Source: Solobacterium sp.
Lineage (GTDB): Bacteria > Bacillota_I > Bacilli_A > Erysipelotrichales > Erysipelotrichaceae
Direction: 5' to 3'
Length of the DNA stretch: 64,000 nt
NCBI GenBank assembly: GCA_022486705.1
Contig: JAKVKC010000011.1
Coordinates: 1-64,000 of the forward strand
Shown here piece by piece: positions 49,876-60,229 of this stretch; positions within the stretch are counted from its first letter, which is position 1, and each line of letters begins with the position of its first letter. Below the pieces are notes generated by a model, which saw only the letters and a list, made by a program, of their open reading frames with translations, had not been told where the DNA came from and did no database searches. The position numbers and the translations under genes were made by a program.

Positions 49876-52470
49876 TTACTTCTCTATGCCAACGAATTTG
49901 TAGCCGGCATCTTCTACTGCTTTCTTAATCTCAGCTTCCGGAATATCTCTGTCTGCTGTAATGACCGCAGTCCCTGCTTCATGCGATGCTGCGGCAGATG
50001 AGATCCCTTCTACTGCTTCCAATCCTGCCTTGACATGTTTCTCGCACATAGCGCACATCATGCCTTCGATCTTTACTGTTTCCTTCACTTTGTTTTCCTC
50101 TTCTTTCTTATTTTCCAAAGTCACTGCACATTCTGTTTCAAGCGTACAGAACGACCTGCATACATCTTCTATTTTATCTGCATCTGCTTTCTGTTTCATT
50201 GCATGATCTGAAGATGCATCATGGATCTTTGCAAGATTCAGCCGCAGAGCATTCATGCATACAGTAAAGCTGGAAAGCGACATGGCTGCAGCGCCCCACA
50301 TCGGGTTCATCTGGATGCCCGGATACAGACCGGCGGCCATTGGGATAAGAACGATGTTGTACGCAAAGGCCCAGAATAGATTCTCATGGATATTGCGGAT
50401 CGCAGCCCGGCTCAGACGGATCGCCGCCGCAGCATCGCTCAGTTTGGAATTCATCAGTACAGTATCCGCTGCATCAATAGCAACATCTGTACCGGCACCA
50501 ATGGCCATGCCGATATCTGCTCGGCTCAAGGCCGGGGCATCATTGATGCCGTCCCCGATCATGAGCACCTTGCCGTATTTCTGCAGTTCTGCTGCTGCCT
50601 TCTCTTTGCCATCCGGCCGCACACCGGCAATGATATGATCCACCCCTGCCTGAGCCCCGATAGCTTTGGCCGTATGCAGGTTGTCGCCCGTCAGCATCAC
50701 CGTTTCAATCCCCATTGCTTTGATCTCTGCAATGGCCTGAGCAGAATCCTGCTTGATCGCATCCGCAATGCCGATCATACCGAGAAGCTGATCTTCTTTA
50801 GCAAAGAAGACTGGCGTCATACCGCGTTCTGCCAAGTTCTCACTTGCCTGTATATATTTTGCCGGAATATGGATCTTTGTCTGCAGGTAGGCAAGCGACC
50901 CGCCATAGACCTTCTGTCCCTGCAGTTTTCCTTCCAATCCATTGCCTGCATGTACTGCCAGCGCATCGATCTCTTCTGCATGCATGTCTGCCGCGGATGC
51001 ATAGGACATGATTGCTTTAGCCAATGGATGTTCACTGTGTTCTTCCAAGGCTGCTGCCGTTTCCAGCAGAGCTTCCTTTTTGATACCATCCGCAGGTACG
51101 ATCTCTGTTACTTCCGGTCTGCCGGCAGTAATGGTACCTGTTTTATCCAATACAGCGATCTGAGTGCGGCCGGTATTTTCCAATGCTTCGGAAGTCTTGA
51201 ATAAGATCCCATGCTTTGCCCCGACGCCATTGGCCACCATGATCGCCGTAGGCGTAGCCAAGCCCAGCGCACATGGGCAGGATATGACAAGCACAGAGAT
51301 TGCTTTCTCCAAGGCATAGGATACAGACTGTCCCAGCAGGAGCCAGATGATCATCACTGCCAAGGCAATGATCATCACCGCCGGCACAAAGATACCGGAT
51401 ACTTTATCCGCGATCTTTGCAATCGGTGCTTTGGTAGCAGATGCATCGCTTACCATCTGAATGATCTGGGCAAAAGCAGTATCTTCGCCGACCCGCACTG
51501 CTCTTGCCTGAATATAGCCGGATTGATTTATGGTCGCAGCACTGACCTGATCATTGACTGCTTTATCGACCGGCAGGGATTCGCCGCTCAGAGCAGATTC
51601 ATCAACAGCTGAGGATCCGGATATCACAACGCCATCCACCGGTATTGCTTCGCCTGGCTTTACCGCAAAGATATCGCCGATCTTCACTTCTGCAATGCCG
51701 ACTTTGACTTCTTTGCCATCTTTGATCAGAACAGCGCTCTGCGGCGCCATCTTCAGAAGATTCTTCAGAGCATCTGTCGTTCTGCCTTTGGAGACAGCTT
51801 CCAATGTTTTTCCAATGGTGATCAGGCAGGGGATCATGGCAGCCGATTCAAAGTACAGCTGATCATGATACAGTGCCATCAGATCCATATTGGCGGTCCC
51901 ATCTGTGACCAGAACGGTCATCTGGTAAAGCACATATACCGACCATCCGAAGGAAACGCTGCTGCCAAGAGCGACCAAGGTATCCATATTCGGTGCGCCA
52001 TGGAAAAGACTGCGGAAACCGGATACAAAGAATTCTTTATTGATGATCATCACCGCGGCTGCCAATAACATCTGGGTCAGTCCCAGGCCAATATGATTGT
52101 GTGCCAAGAAAGATGGGAGCGGACAAGCCAGCATGTTATGTCCCATCGTAATATACATCAGCACAAGCAGGAAACCAGCTGACCAGATCAGCCTCTTCTT
52201 CAGCTTGGGTGTTTCACGATCCATGAGAGCATCCTTCTGCTCTGCAATCTTATCATTGTCCGTCTGATGCGCATCTTCTCTCACGGCACCATAGCCGGCA
52301 CTTTCGACTGCTTGGATCACTGTCTGATCGCTCACCTCTCCATCGACCATCAGGGTATTGGTCAGAAGGGACACAGAAGCATTCTTCACGCCGTCAATTT
52401 TAGACACTGCTTTTTCAACATGTGCCTGACAGGACGCACACGTCATTCCTGTGATTCTATACTGCTTCAT
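49876..52470 (-). CDS. copA: Copper-exporting P-type ATPase with HMA domains at both ends
   Basis: An 864-residue P1B ATPase. N-terminal HMA with Cu-binding CASC (Cys11, Cys14); eight membrane helices with the copper-transport motif CPC in [12 protein letters not shown]; phosphorylation DKTGT in [16 protein letters not shown] motif in SEHPLAKAI. After the core, a Cys-containing linker (about 760-790) leads to a second HMA (about 795-864, CAMC with Cys806 and Cys809). The C-terminal HMA resembles a fused CopZ chaperone, an arrangement rarer than tandem N-terminal HMA. CsoR is 12 bases upstream in the same transcript. Confidence 0.94.
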
Positions 52471-52482
52471 ATTTGTCCTTTC

Positions 52483-52791
52483 CTATTTCATTACCTTCTG
52501 AAGCACCGTGCACAGCTCATCGATCGCTTCATCATTCCCGCTGCGGATATCTTCTGCAACACAGCTGTGGATATGCGATGACAGCAGCACTTTGTTAAAG
52601 CTGTTGAGGGCATTGGTCACGGCCGATACCTGGATCAGAATGTCTGGACAGTAGCGGTCATCCTCCACCATATTTTCAATGCCCCGGATCTGTCCTTCGA
52701 TCCGCTTCAGTCTCATCAGCATCGTCTTTTTCTCTTCTGCTGTTCTTTTTTTATGTCTCTCGCTGCAATGCGGACATGTATTTTCTTTCAT
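52483..52791 (-). CDS. csoR: CsoR-type copper-sensing repressor
   Basis: A 102-residue all-helical repressor (DUF156). Conserved features: RLKRIEGQIRGIENMVEDDRYCPDIL with the first Cys ligand, then LLSSHIHSCV giving the His and second Cys of the Cu(I) site. N-terminal extra CPHC...H may form a further metal site. The ATG at 52791 is used rather than the GTG just before it because AGAGGTG is well placed. First gene of csoR-copA; operator in front. Confidence 0.92.
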   Translation of the reverse strand: MKENTCPHCSERHKKRTAEEKKTMLMRLKRIEGQIRGIENMVEDDRYCPDILIQVSAVTNALNSFNKVLLSSHIHSCVAEDIRSGNDEAIDELCTVLQKVMK

Positions 52792-52823
52792 CACTGCACC
52801 TCTTTTCTAAGCATCCTTGTTAT

Positions 52824-52840
52824 ATACCCCCATAGGGTAT
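52824..52840. promoter_or_regulatory. CsoR operator
   Basis: ATACCC-N5-GGGTAT (52824-52840), within TATACCCCCATAGGGTAT, matches the CsoR operator. The longer flanks AGCATCCT (52810-52817) and AGGATGCT (52851-52858) form a wider inverted repeat around it. Confidence 0.75.
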
Positions 52841-52860
52841 TATGGCAAGCAGGATGCTCA

Positions 52861-52891
52861 GGAAAGAAAAAAGATCGGGAAATTCCCGATC
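52861..52891 (-). terminator. Terminator of the SDR gene
   Basis: On the minus strand GATCGGGAATTTCCCGATC (52891-52873) is a perfect stem, followed by TTTTTTCTTTCC. It begins one base past the stop codon of the SDR gene and sits close to the CsoR operator. Confidence 0.85.
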
Positions 52892-53911
52892 TCAGTATTT
52901 GGTTGAAATGATCTTCATGAAGGCACGGTAGTCCTTGATCAGACTGTCGCACCATGCATCATAGTCCGGATCTTCGATCTTGCATTCCGGATGCTGTGCC
53001 ATATAGGCAAAGTATTTCTGCACACCCGTCTGCAGGGTGATCTCACAGCGGAAGTCCGGGATCAGCTGAGTCATCTGATACTTAGAATACATATTGGAGA
53101 ACTGCTTGTCTCCCAGCAGTGTTTCAATATGATCATACTTCGATGTACATGCCAAGGTATCTGAAGAAATATGGCAGATCCGCAGTTTCTTGCCCAGCTG
53201 TGAAGCAATCTCCTGATAGATCATATCCCATGTCACAATGGCTGGATTGACGATATTGACGGTCTGGCCATTGGCCTGCGGATTGCCGATCATCTGTATA
53301 AAGTTATAAGCAAAGTCATCCGCATGCATCATGTGCCAGATTGCTTTGCCATCGCCATGCACGATGACAGATTTTCCATTCATGATACGCGATACAACGC
53401 TCCAGCAGTTCTTTCCTTTAACACTCAGCGGGATACGATCCATGCTGTAGGTCTGGGACGGACGAACGATCACTGCTGGGAAACCAGTTGCGATCGCATG
53501 ACGGAAGACATCTTCCGCTGCCTGCTTGTTCTGACCATACCGGCTGAAACGATTCTTCTGTTCTGAGTTCTCATTGAGCCAGACGGTATTTTCATGGTTG
53601 AACGTAACGACCGTCGATATAAAGAAGTACTGCTTGGTGCGTCCATTGAAAATGCGCACACGCTGTGAAGCAGTATTTGCATCATAGACTAAGAAATCCA
53701 CAATGGCATCATACTTATCGCCGGCTGTCTCTCTTTCCAATGCCCCTGGTTCTTTGACATCGCATATGATCTGCTTTACATTTGCCGGCACTTCTTTTGT
53801 GCCGCGGTTCAGTACCGTAACTTCATTGTTAATGTCTTTGCTCAGCAGCTGCATGACTGATGATGAAATTGTGCCTGTGCCGCCAATGAGCAGTATTTTT
53901 TTCGTTTCCAT
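52892..53911 (-). CDS. NAD-dependent epimerase/dehydratase-like SDR protein
   Basis: A 339-residue extended SDR. The nucleotide-binding motif is ILLIGGTGTISSSV near residues 5-18, and the Tyr/Lys pair is in SRYGQNKQAAED. Such proteins act on NDP-sugars, as isoflavone-type reductases or as 3-beta-HSD-like enzymes; the substrate is not readable. AAGGGG precedes the start. Monocistronic between the copper operon (same strand, with a terminator) and a reductase pair. Confidence 0.85.
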   Translation of the reverse strand: METKKILLIGGTGTISSSVMQLLSKDINNEVTVLNRGTKEVPANVKQIICDVKEPGALERETAGDKYDAIVDFLVYDANTASQRVRIFNGRTKQYFFISTVVTFNHENTVWLNENSEQKNRFSRYGQNKQAAEDVFRHAIATGFPAVIVRPSQTYSMDRIPLSVKGKNCWSVVSRIMNGKSVIVHGDGKAIWHMMHADDFAYNFIQMIGNPQANGQTVNIVNPAIVTWDMIYQEIASQLGKKLRICHISSDTLACTSKYDHIETLLGDKQFSNMYSKYQMTQLIPDFRCEITLQTGVQKYFAYMAQHPECKIEDPDYDAWCDSLIKDYRAFMKIISTKY

Positions 53912-56374: not shown

Positions 56375-58741
56375 TTATGCTGCTAAATGCTTGTTGACAT
56401 AGGAGATGATATTCGAAGCATTGGCATAGGTCTCTGCTTTTTCACCATTGATACCGACCAATGTCGGTGCCTGCATGATGTCATACTTCTTGGCTAATTC
56501 CGGATGTTCTTCGGCATCGATCAAGGTATAGGCAAAGTTCTTTTCGGCCAGCATCTTCTTGATCATTTTGCAGTTAGGACATGTCTTGGTCGTAAAGAGG
56601 AGGAATTCCTTCGGTGATACGGATACCGGCTTCTTCTCTTCTTCACGGAAATCCGCTACGGGATGAGCTGCACTGACATCGACCTTATACGTCTTGCGAT
56701 CTTTAAACTCCTGCGATTTGCCGGCATTCCAGTTCTTCACCGGACGATAGTATCCTGTGATACGGGAATAGACTTCTGTCTCCCCACCGCACTTTGGGCA
56801 CTTCCATACTTCACCAGCAAGATATCCGTCATTCGGACAGACACTGTAGGTCGGAGAAAGTGTGTAATAAGGAAGCTTATAATTCTCTGCAATCTTTTTG
56901 ACCAGGGTCGCAGCGGACTTCCAATCTGACAGACGTTCGCCAAGGAAGGCATGGAAAACAGTTCCGGAAGTATACAGTGTCTGCAATGGATCCTGTATAT
57001 CGAGTGCTGTGAAGATATCATCCGTATAGCCGACTGGCAGATGCGAGCTGTTGGTATAGTACGGCGTGCCATTCTGATTGGCCGTGATGATATCCGGATA
57101 TTTATCCTTGTCATGTTTTGCCAAACGATAGGTCGTTGATTCGGCTGGGGTTGCTTCAAGGTTGTACAGATCGCCATATTCTTCCTGGTAGTCTGACAGA
57201 CGTGTCCGCATATGCTTCAGTACTTCAGCCGCAAATTCCTGTGTTTCTTTATGTGTCAGATCCTTGCGGAGCCAATTGGCATTCAGGCCGACTTCATTCA
57301 TACCGATCAGACCGATCGTACTGAAGTGGTTGGCAAAGGTGCCAAGATATCTCTTTGTATATGGATACAGACCGCCTTCGAGAAGCTTTGTAATAACTGT
57401 TCTCTTTGTCTTCAGAGAACGGGCACTGATATCCATGATGTGATCAAGGCGCCTGTAGAAATCTTCCGGATTCTTGGCAAGATAAGCGATTCTCGGCAGA
57501 TTGATCGTTACAACACCGACCGATCCAGTAGATTCACCAGAGCCGAAGAAGCCGCCGCTCTTCTTTCTCAATTCACGCAGATCAAGACGCAGTCTGCAGC
57601 ACATAGAACGGACATCGCTTGGTTCCATATCTGAATTGACATAGTTGGAGAAATAAGGTGTGCCATACTTCGCTGTCATTTCAAACAGCAGGCGATTGTT
57701 CTCCGTATCCGACCAGTCAAAGTCTTTCGTAATAGAATATGTTGGAATTGGATACTGGAAGCCTCTGCCGTTATAGTCACCTTCGACCATAGTTTCAATA
57801 AAGGCCTTATTGACCATATCCATTTCTTTCTTGCAGTCTTTATACTTGAAATCCATTTCTTTTCCGCCGACAAGAGCTGGCAGTTCAGCCAGATCATTCG
57901 GTACGGTCCAATCCAAAGTGATATTTGTGAACGGTGCCTGTGTGCCCCATCTGGACGGTGTATTGACACCGTAGATAAAGGACTGTACGCACTGCTTTAC
58001 TTCTTTATAAGACAGATTGTCTTTCTTAACAAAAGGAGCCAGATAAGTATCAAAGGAAGAGAATGCCTGTGCACCTGCCCATTCATTCTGCATAATACCT
58101 AAGAAGTTGACCATCTGATTGCATAATGTGCTCAGATGATTTGCCGGGCCGCTGGTGATCTTGCCTGGTACACCGCCCAGACCTTCCTGAATCAGCTGTT
58201 TTAAGGACCAGCCGGCACAGTAGCCTGTCAGCATGCTCAGATCATGGATGTGGATATCGCCGCTGCGATGTGCTTCTGCGATCTCCTGATCATAGACTTC
58301 GCTCAGCCAATAATTGGCTGTGATCGCACCGGAATTGGAAAGGATCAGACCGCCGACAGAATATGTCACGGTGCTGTTCTCCTTGACTCTCCAGTCCAGA
58401 GCCTTCAGATAGCTGTCGACCAGTTTCTTATAATCCAAAGATGTATTCATGACATTGCGGATATTCTGTCTCTGTTTCCGATACAGGATATATGCCTTGG
58501 CAACATCTGCATATCCCGCTTCTGAAAGCACCTTCTCGGCAGAATCCTGAATATCTTCTACATCAATGACATCGTCCTTGATCTTCTTTTCAAAATCACT
58601 GGTGACGCGCAGCGCAACTAAACTGATGACACTGTCATCATAATTTCTGCCGCATGCCTCAAATGCTTTCTTAATGGCATCCGTGATCTTCTGCAGATCA
58701 AAGGCAGCAATCTTTCCATCTCTCTTTTTCACTTGATACAT
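56375..58741 (-). CDS. nrdD: Class III ribonucleotide reductase NrdD with fused C-terminal redoxin
   Basis: A 788-residue enzyme making dNTPs under anaerobic conditions. An ATP cone (1 to about 90) precedes the barrel; the zinc site is CPNDGY...CPKCGG and the glycyl-radical motif RITGYYRP puts the radical Gly at about 663. After the normal C-terminal region (VKNWNAGK, near 670) it does not stop but continues into a glutaredoxin/thioredoxin-like domain (about 709-788) with an active site CPNC (Cys721, Cys724) and a cis-Pro QAPT. A fused reductant supply is the likely meaning. nrdG lies one base downstream in the transcript order upstream of it. Confidence 0.94.
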   Translation of the reverse strand: MYQVKKRDGKIAAFDLQKITDAIKKAFEACGRNYDDSVISLVALRVTSDFEKKIKDDVIDVEDIQDSAEKVLSEAGYADVAKAYILYRKQRQNIRNVMNTSLDYKKLVDSYLKALDWRVKENSTVTYSVGGLILSNSGAITANYWLSEVYDQEIAEAHRSGDIHIHDLSMLTGYCAGWSLKQLIQEGLGGVPGKITSGPANHLSTLCNQMVNFLGIMQNEWAGAQAFSSFDTYLAPFVKKDNLSYKEVKQCVQSFIYGVNTPSRWGTQAPFTNITLDWTVPNDLAELPALVGGKEMDFKYKDCKKEMDMVNKAFIETMVEGDYNGRGFQYPIPTYSITKDFDWSDTENNRLLFEMTAKYGTPYFSNYVNSDMEPSDVRSMCCRLRLDLRELRKKSGGFFGSGESTGSVGVVTINLPRIAYLAKNPEDFYRRLDHIMDISARSLKTKRTVITKLLEGGLYPYTKRYLGTFANHFSTIGLIGMNEVGLNANWLRKDLTHKETQEFAAEVLKHMRTRLSDYQEEYGDLYNLEATPAESTTYRLAKHDKDKYPDIITANQNGTPYYTNSSHLPVGYTDDIFTALDIQDPLQTLYTSGTVFHAFLGERLSDWKSAATLVKKIAENYKLPYYTLSPTYSVCPNDGYLAGEVWKCPKCGGETEVYSRITGYYRPVKNWNAGKSQEFKDRKTYKVDVSAAHPVADFREEEKKPVSVSPKEFLLFTTKTCPNCKMIKKMLAEKNFAYTLIDAEEHPELAKKYDIMQAPTLVGINGEKAETYANASNIISYVNKHLAA

Positions 58742-58742
58742 A

Positions 58743-59897
58743 TCAATTCTCCTTCAGTCCCCTGCATTCCGCTGCCGGGATCACTTGACGCACCGCGTCT
58801 CTCAGTTCATTCATTTCTTCTGCACTGTACGCAGAATAGCCTTCCTGGATCAGATGTCCGCTGTCAAGAAACTGCTGCAGATAATACTTTTTTGCCGGTT
58901 TGATCCATTCCGCAAGAGCCAGCAGATCTTCTTTGGTATGAAGTTCTTTCACGACTGTTGTACGGAATTCATAATCGACCGTGCCCTTCTTCAGGAAGGC
59001 AACAGACTTCTCAATATTCTCAAGTGAGAAGCTTTCCGCATCCATTCCGACTGTCTCGGCATATTTCTCTTTGCAGTTCTTGATATCCATGGCGACATAA
59101 TCAATACAGCCGCTCTCCACATATTCCTGAAGCTTCTCCGGCATCGAGCCATTCGTATCCAGCTTCACAAGATAGCCCATCTTTTTAATGCGCTTGATCA
59201 GTTCCAAGGTATCCTGCAGCATCGGTTCGCCGCCGCTGATGCAAACCCCATCGAGGAGCCCCTTCCGCTTTTCCAGATACTGCATGATCTCTTCCGGATC
59301 ATAGTATTCATAATCTTCCGGCAGGAAGACCAGATCGCGGTTGTGACAGAACGGGCACTTGAAGTTGCATCCCGCTGTAAAGATCGTACTGGCAACTTTT
59401 CCCGGATAATCCAGCAATGTCATCTTCTGGATGCCGCCGATCCTCAGATTGGAGAAATCGATCGGATTCTCCTGCGGATTCAGCTTCTCACTGCTGTTTT
59501 CAGCAACCTGTGCCATTAAGCTCTCAAAGCTGGCAAAGTCATTTCCTTCCGCCAGGATCGCTCGGCACTGATTCCGGTATTCATAGATATCATTGACGAT
59601 CTTAGAAACCTTATCTGTTGTATACAGGCGCTTCACGCGCTTATCATTTTCATCCTGCTTTGCCTGCACATATCCCTGATCGATCAGTCTGGTCACAGAT
59701 TTGGTCGTCGTTCCCTTATCTACGCGTGTTGCATTCGTAACATCCTGCATTGTCACGCCTTTATGTTCATTGATATAGAGCAGAAAAATCAGCTGTCCTG
59801 ACCCCATATCATACTGTGCCAACACATGATCGTAGTATTTCTGCGTGTTCCGATAAAGGATGGATAAATTCAGCATGAAGCTGCTGTTCTCTGCCAT
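58743..59897 (-). CDS. nrdG: MarR-type DNA-binding domain fused to NrdG (RNR-activating radical SAM enzyme)
   Basis: A 384-residue two-domain protein. Residues about 1-140 form a complete MarR winged helix (GVTMQDVTNATRVDKGTTTKSVTRLIDQGYV, wing ENDKRVKRLYTT). Residues about 150-384 are a NrdG/PflA-like radical SAM protein with CNFKCPFC (177-184), GGEPML and LDTNGSM, which generates the glycyl radical on NrdD. Thus the enzyme that activates the reductase also carries a DNA-binding unit. It is the first gene of nrdG-nrdD. A 22-base palindrome stands 20 bases before its start, the expected site for its own MarR part. Confidence 0.92.
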   Translation of the reverse strand: MAENSSFMLNLSILYRNTQKYYDHVLAQYDMGSGQLIFLLYINEHKGVTMQDVTNATRVDKGTTTKSVTRLIDQGYVQAKQDENDKRVKRLYTTDKVSKIVNDIYEYRNQCRAILAEGNDFASFESLMAQVAENSSEKLNPQENPIDFSNLRIGGIQKMTLLDYPGKVASTIFTAGCNFKCPFCHNRDLVFLPEDYEYYDPEEIMQYLEKRKGLLDGVCISGGEPMLQDTLELIKRIKKMGYLVKLDTNGSMPEKLQEYVESGCIDYVAMDIKNCKEKYAETVGMDAESFSLENIEKSVAFLKKGTVDYEFRTTVVKELHTKEDLLALAEWIKPAKKYYLQQFLDSGHLIQEGYSAYSAEEMNELRDAVRQVIPAAECRGLKEN

Positions 59898-60229
59898 TTA
59901 TCTCTCCTGTTCCTTTAATAGTTGGATTTCCAACTATTGCTAGCTTTATTCTAGCTGAGAGATTATAGAATGCAATCAAAATCATCTGGAATTCTTTAAG
60001 TTTTATCAAAACCGTGAAAAAATTTTTGAAAATATGTTGGGATACCATCCGCGAAAATGTTTCACGAAATGCTTTCGGCATTTCTTCTCAGTTAAAATTA
60101 TGCAATACTAAGTGCAGAAAATTTATTTTCCCGCATCATTAAAAGAAGAACATCACAATCATAAATTACAAGAGTTTCATTTCAAAAGTTCTCTGGTAAG
60201 ATTCAATGTAGTGAGCTGAGGGGGAGACA
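59898..60229. other. 332-base intergenic region between nrdG and the 41-residue ORF
   Basis: Contains the palindrome (59917-59938), a likely nrdG promoter on the minus strand (TTGCAT, 16 bases, TAGAAT near 59952-59980, plus another TATAAT), and GAAATGC-TTTCG-GCATTTC hairpin at 60066-60084. I see no further gene. Confidence 0.5.
59917..59938. promoter_or_regulatory. Perfect 22-base palindrome, likely operator of the MarR-NrdG protein
   Basis: Both arms read AATAGTTGGA and TCCAACTATT around TT. It starts 20 bases before the nrdG ATG and lies just downstream of the likely start of transcription, the usual place for MarR-type autorepression. AGTTGG/CCAACT half-sites resemble known MarR-family operators. 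Confidence 0.75.

Follow-up and report, generated by a model that had tools for sequence, protein, structure and literature searches.

The likely operator of a MarR-NrdG fusion protein recurs at ribonucleotide reductase genes in Solobacterium sp. and its relatives

An inverted repeat found in front of a fused nrdG gene in Solobacterium sp., and conserved among related anaerobic gut bacteria, is likely the operator of the protein encoded by that gene, in which a MarR-type regulator is joined to a radical-SAM activase, and the reductase genes likely form a dedicated regulon of this protein, which is probably repressed. What computation shows is the site itself, its conservation, its association with the fused gene, and its reappearance at reductase genes, together with the absence of the regulator NrdR. 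That the fused protein is the binder, and that its effect is repressive, is inferred from sequence alone, and the signal to which it would respond is speculative; there are no binding or expression data. The window analyzed here is a stretch of 64,000 nucleotides (contig JAKVKC010000011.1, positions 1 to 64,000), taken from a 2.08-Mb draft assembly of 40 contigs. The features relevant to the argument are the following:

59917..59938, no strand assigned: operator, a 10-2-10 inverted repeat AATAGTTGGA-TT-TCCAACTATT with core TAGTTGGAWWTCCAACTA
59948..59953, minus strand: likely -10 element, TAGAAT, located 9 bases upstream from the operator and kept in the nearest relative (L064)
58743..59897, minus strand: MarR-NrdG2 fusion of 384 aa, with MarR at about aa 6-138, a flexible linker at about 139-152, and a radical-SAM activase with CX3CX2C at 153-384
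56375..58741, minus strand: nrdD2, encoding a class III ribonucleotide reductase that carries an ATP cone and, at its C-terminus, a glutaredoxin-like domain (NCBIfam NF006126, 1141 bits)

The repeat (plus-strand letters) consists of two 10-bp arms that are 100% complementary, separated by a spacer of 2 nt. A first-pass annotation had described it as a perfect 22-base palindrome, which held only in part: the arms are perfect, but the central TT is not self-complementary, so that the element is an inverted repeat rather than a strict palindrome. It is separated by 19 bases from the ATG of the fused gene, which starts at 59897 on the minus strand and is preceded by a Shine-Dalgarno-like stretch, AGGAGAG. 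A terminator at this position was considered and rejected, as no T-run follows the repeat and none was placed there by a terminator scan.

Taken by itself, the bare repeat is only mildly unusual and statistically weak, since the window contains two perfect inverted repeats (arms of at least 10, spacer of 0-6), where 30 shuffles gave 0.6 on average. The full operator occurs as a single copy in the host assembly when up to 3 mismatches are allowed. Comparison with the nearest relative, in which 2 of the 22 operator positions differ from the window and 27 of the 178 positions outside it, involves sequences too close to decide the matter, and provides no strong contrast by itself. Both the number of repeats and this weak contrast would fit a symmetry that arose by chance, or one shared through common ancestry without function. 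This reading is all but excluded, however, by the recurrence of the site across genera at a similar distance, as well as at unlinked reductase genes, when scored with a fixed matrix. It is this conservation among relatives, not bare symmetry, that makes the case for a real operator strong.

The only other perfect repeat in the window with an arm of at least 10 (AGATCGGGAATTTCCCGATCT, 52872-52892, minus strand) lies just past a gene end and is followed by a T-run, and by its look we infer it to be an ordinary terminator. A further element, ATACCCCCATAGGGTAT (52822-52842), sits just upstream of a small gene (52483-52794), which is followed by a gene for a copper-type P-ATPase (49876-52470). The product of the small gene resembles a CsoR-type copper sensor, and ATACCCCCATAGGGTAT looks like the operator of a copper regulator.

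All 60 relatives matched the fused protein somewhere, and by our reading of the search rows 39 of them carry the full fusion; one genome in which a fused-like gene is cut at a contig end (G026) was left out of the count of fusion genomes. Relatives, named genomes, and nine further regions together provided 60 fused loci, of which 51 remained after removal of 9 near-duplicates. A matrix was seeded from the window's own operator, refined on the fused loci, and scored leave-one-out. The operator was found at 45 of the 51 non-redundant loci, 9-47 nt before the start, and each of these sites scored above all 200 shuffles. As the first matrix was seeded with the window's own site, this result is partly circular, which does not apply to the tests with a fixed matrix at nrdD1 and at new loci. 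The frozen matrix was then applied to 14 new fused loci belonging to other genera (families f1 and f21) and detected the site at 10 of them (0/100 shuffles); the new loci were obtained from a class-wide search that returned 15, one of which (L271) was dropped because its gene lies at a contig edge. Across the operator-bearing genera, the proteins are 44-65% identical, and the distance of the site is similar.

Unfused nrdG2 genes, which served as the negative control, did not show this feature. None of 69 unfused loci reached 8 bits (maximum 7.2); 10 of these were same-genus paralogues, and the remaining 59 came from other named genomes, mainly of Clostridia. In a second unfused nrdG2 set, 0 of 7 reached the threshold with the frozen matrix. 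The first-pass annotation had taken the site for the operator through which the fused protein regulates itself, and had named a lack of conservation in all other genomes of the group as grounds for rejecting this. Such a lack was not observed, given the 45 and 10 loci counted above, and the proposal is supported by conservation; that the fused protein binds there, and that it represses, is an inference.

The operator was missing at 6 of the 51 fused genes (L027, L028, L029, L031, L144, and L152) and at 4 of the 14 new ones. In G003, the fused gene has no site and is not next to nrdD2 but follows an unrelated-looking gene; the distinct second reductase gene of that genome, nrdD1, keeps one. G036 likewise has no operator at the fused gene, yet carries one at nrdD1. 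The fused gene of G004 adjoins nrdD2, and neither has a site. Some fused loci (L080, L083, L288, L004, and L270) have two operators, which lie almost side by side or 31-100 bp apart. In the recognition helix, the residue in front of DKG (V or F) varies together with operator positions 9/14; this pattern follows family lines and is not proof.

The first-pass annotation had also suggested that a scan of the full genome would reveal the regulon, and such a scan indeed uncovered a matching copy ahead of another class III reductase gene, both in the host genome and in relatives. Searching the host genome with the core pattern (up to 2 mismatches) returned 6 places, the window operator included. One of these was a sister site, TAGTTGGAAATCCAACTT, on another contig (C19), about 32 nt before nrdD1, which is followed by a small classical nrdG (nrdG1). 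The other four (L164, L166, L167, and L168) lie in or beside unrelated genes. Among the relatives, 43 of 44 nrdD1 loci could be tallied, as L202 was dropped for having 10 nt of upstream sequence only; second nrdD1-like copies in G028 and G052 were kept outside the tally. At a threshold of 12 bits, the frozen matrix detected the upstream site in 24 of the 26 fusion-bearing genomes and in 1 of the 17 that have no fusion (Fisher p 9e-9, with the caveat that genomes are not independent). Counted by genus, with counts entered by hand, the site was associated with nrdD1 in 6 of 7 genera with the fusion vs 0 of 8 without (p 0.0014). Lowering the threshold to 8 bits gave 26 of the 43 loci; a match of 9.2 bits in G051 counts as absent at the higher threshold and as present at the lower one.

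The two fusion genomes in which nrdD1 has no site are G012 and G053. In G012, the fused gene, nrdD2, a thioredoxin-reductase-like gene, and nrdD1 stand in line on one strand, in one apparent operon behind two sites, so that nrdD1 may need no site of its own. The missing site in G053 is unexplained.

The site also follows the regulator rather than the ancestry of nrdD1. Within family f2, six fusion-bearing genomes encode an nrdD1 that is 52-54% like that of the host and carry the site, whereas thirteen fusion-less genomes encode one that is 66-71% like that of the host and lack it. The fusion-less G037, G052, and G054, whose nrdD1 is 51% like that of the host, have no site either.

The class I gene nrdA was found in 16 of the 60 relatives and was not found in the host genome. 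Nine genomes carry both nrdA and the fusion: a strong site lies about 30 nt before nrdA in two of these (G002 and G011), G008 has a weak site at the nrdA start, and the remaining six have none. A strict pattern, applied to 14 chosen genomes, returned 14 sites, 10 of which lie at reductase genes (8 at nrdD1 and 2 at nrdA). The others comprise one at a stand-alone MarR gene, two inside genes (one each), and one that is terminator-like; five of the 14 genomes had no strict-pattern match at all. As a separate observation, three fusion-less genomes of one genus (G051, G056, and G049; loci L208, L209, and L210) share a conserved element, ATGGGTTGGACGTCGAATTATT with a AATAATTCGAA repeat close by, some 112-114 nt ahead of nrdD1; it may be the operator of a different regulator.

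A referee could object that the site is a true reductase operator that is read by another, stand-alone MarR protein, with the fusion being coincidental or serving only to bring the activase to DNA. In favor of this reading, G021 keeps a good site at nrdD1 though the fused gene was not found in its assembly (97% complete), the host encodes several other MarR-like genes, and a similar site, AGTTGA....TCAACT, accompanies the stand-alone MarR gene of G024. This gene (L254, around 1497-1520) has at its start the repeat TTAGTTGATATATCAACTAT, which is closely related to the operator and has AGTTGA half-sites, and recognition of such half-sites is thus not private to the fusion. Against it, the presence of the site follows the fused gene across genera in the nrdD1 tally, and the site stands at the fused gene itself; the gene of the regulator is the usual place for autoregulation by MarR proteins. 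Furthermore, of the nine other places in the host that match MarR_2, six were inspected in 3-kb loci and were without the site, the sole match reaching 6.8 bits. We consider a stand-alone reader unlikely, and retain the fusion as the preferred binder.

The placement of the operator relative to promoter elements bears on the sign of regulation. If TAGAAT is the -10 element, the operator would be inferred to span roughly +3 to +24. This placement rests on comparison, as a simple promoter scan of the window did not call TAGAAT; an alternative, TATAAT (59962-59967), is not kept in the nearest relative. Across the loci, a -10 hexamer with 5 of 6 matching positions was found at most 40 nt upstream of the operator in 37 of 45 cases, vs 13 expected, with a median gap of 12 nt, and we infer from these sequences that the operator tends to cover the transcription start at fused genes. 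In front of the family f2 nrdD1 genes, the operator instead sits immediately upstream of a TATAAT-like box. Repression is inferred because the site overlaps promoter elements: both placements would block the polymerase, and neither is typical of activation.

In another reading, the repeat acts at the RNA level, where the 5' leader of the nrdG-nrdD2 transcript would form a hairpin that affects stability or translation. The leader does fold into a 9-pair hairpin (-10.1 kcal/mol, z -3.0). However, many relatives keep the core letters with just 4-7 of 10 arm pairs, and since the arms are often imperfect while the core letters stay, recognition by a protein is favored over an RNA stem. In addition, the family f2 site at nrdD1, being upstream of the -10 box, is probably outside the transcript, and no Rfam family matches the leader. 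A riboswitch or RNA hairpin was rejected on the grounds of the imperfect arms and the missing Rfam match, and we regard this reading as very unlikely compared to a protein-bound operator.

A MarR-type winged helix-turn-helix is present in the fused protein, as MarR_2 (PF12802) matched aa 31-87 above its cut-off (E 1.2e-11, 45 bits vs a cut-off of 27), and Radical_SAM matched aa 172-301. The activase half was identified as NrdG2 by NCBIfam TIGR02495, at 215 bits vs a cut-off of 131. An AlphaFold2 monomer model built from 15 sequences (mean pLDDT 86.8, pTM 0.63) shows a full MarR fold with its wing and long flanking helices (6-29, 101-116, and 121-138), followed by a low-confidence linker near 140-150 and a radical-SAM barrel domain. 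The monomer model thereby predicts that the MarR dimerization helices are present, not only an HTH. Foldseek matched the model to PFL activase 3c8f and to the MarR proteins 3s2w and 3bpv; the sequence search agrees with these fold families, with MarR matches in the PDB by sequence or fold being 3s2w, 3bpv/3bpx, and 5eri. CX3CX2C and GGE are kept in all 51 fused proteins. Both halves are intact by these criteria, and a dual role in catalysis and regulation is inferred from sequence and model only. The protein is 98% identical to a copy in a metagenome-assembled Erysipelotrichaceae genome.

Downstream, nrdD2 follows the fused gene after 1 nt, and by a simple pattern an nrdD start lies directly 3' of the fused gene in 40 of 51 loci. 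The C-terminal glutaredoxin-like domain of NrdD2 (56375-58741) contains CPNC, so that the enzyme may carry its own reductant.

According to PMC12051234, NrdR acts as a universal repressor of reductase genes in bacteria. It exceeded its cut-off in none of the 60 relatives and in none of the 395 class genomes searched; among 14 control genomes, it did so in 9. Control of these genes by NrdR was rejected on this basis. Without NrdR, the matching of dNTP supply to demand is unexplained in this class, and the MarR-activase fusion offers a testable answer for part of it. The fusion was listed in 23 of the 395 class genomes (a count of listed rows), in families f1, f2, and f21; it therefore cannot be the sole answer to the missing NrdR, but is a candidate answer where it is present.

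In the mechanism we propose, a MarR-type dimer would grip two TAGTTGGA half-sites over the region of the transcription start, just downstream of the -10 element, and the bound fusion would block its own nrdG-nrdD2 operon. Matching sites would bring nrdD1-nrdG1, elsewhere in the genome, under control of the fusion, together with the class I nrdAB operon of a few relatives. The activase would then be a trigger enzyme, in that the polypeptide that installs the glycyl radical also sets the amount of reductase. The signal is speculative; most likely it would be the state of the activase half (NrdD binding, the [4Fe-4S] cluster, or SAM), with free or surplus activase acting as the repressing form.

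A bolder reading is that, where the fusion occurs in this NrdR-less class, the activase-MarR protein governs transcription of the reductases (two of class III and, in some genomes, class I) by relaying its own status (cluster, SAM, or NrdD engagement) to the promoters, coupling the synthesis of reductase to the capacity for its activation. We consider this as likely to be wrong as to be right. If true, a radical-SAM enzyme would double as a transcription factor and might use its oxygen-labile cluster as an intrinsic sensor; this mode of reductase control would be predicted in many gut and rumen Erysipelotrichaceae.

Neither the MarR-NrdG fusion nor its operator was described in the literature searched, which covered titles and the starts of abstracts, with subscription papers mostly outside its scope; the relevant passages of PMC12051234, PMC2795772, PMC3019208, PMC13277315, and PMC13413800 contain no MarR-NrdG fusion. 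A radical-SAM activase acting as a trigger enzyme of this kind was not found in the literature searched either.

Several known systems share part of this arrangement. NrdR resembles the proposed regulator in being dedicated to ribonucleotide reductase operons, with sites that overlap promoters. It differs in having an ATP-cone domain and in requiring a pair of boxes (PMC12051234), whereas a single MarR-type inverted repeat of 18-22 bp is present here. MarR, OhrR, MgrA/SarZ, and SlyA are autoregulators of the MarR family. Like these, the fusion has a complete MarR fold, as modeled, and an inverted-repeat operator that overlaps its own promoter, as judged by sequence in the absence of binding data; unlike these, its carboxyl-terminal half is a full radical-SAM activase, and its regulon appears to consist of reductase genes. 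With the NrdG2 activases (TIGR02495), the fusion shares an activase half that scores above the cut-off, a conserved CX3CX2C, and a position in front of nrdD, but it adds an N-terminal MarR domain, and unfused paralogues from the same genus are without the operator. Finally, PutA, BirA, and NadR are trigger enzymes, in which an enzyme and a DNA-binding regulator reside in one polypeptide that governs its own pathway. By analogy, the MarR-NrdG fusion may be likened to these, as its enzyme and DNA-binding domain also share a single polypeptide.
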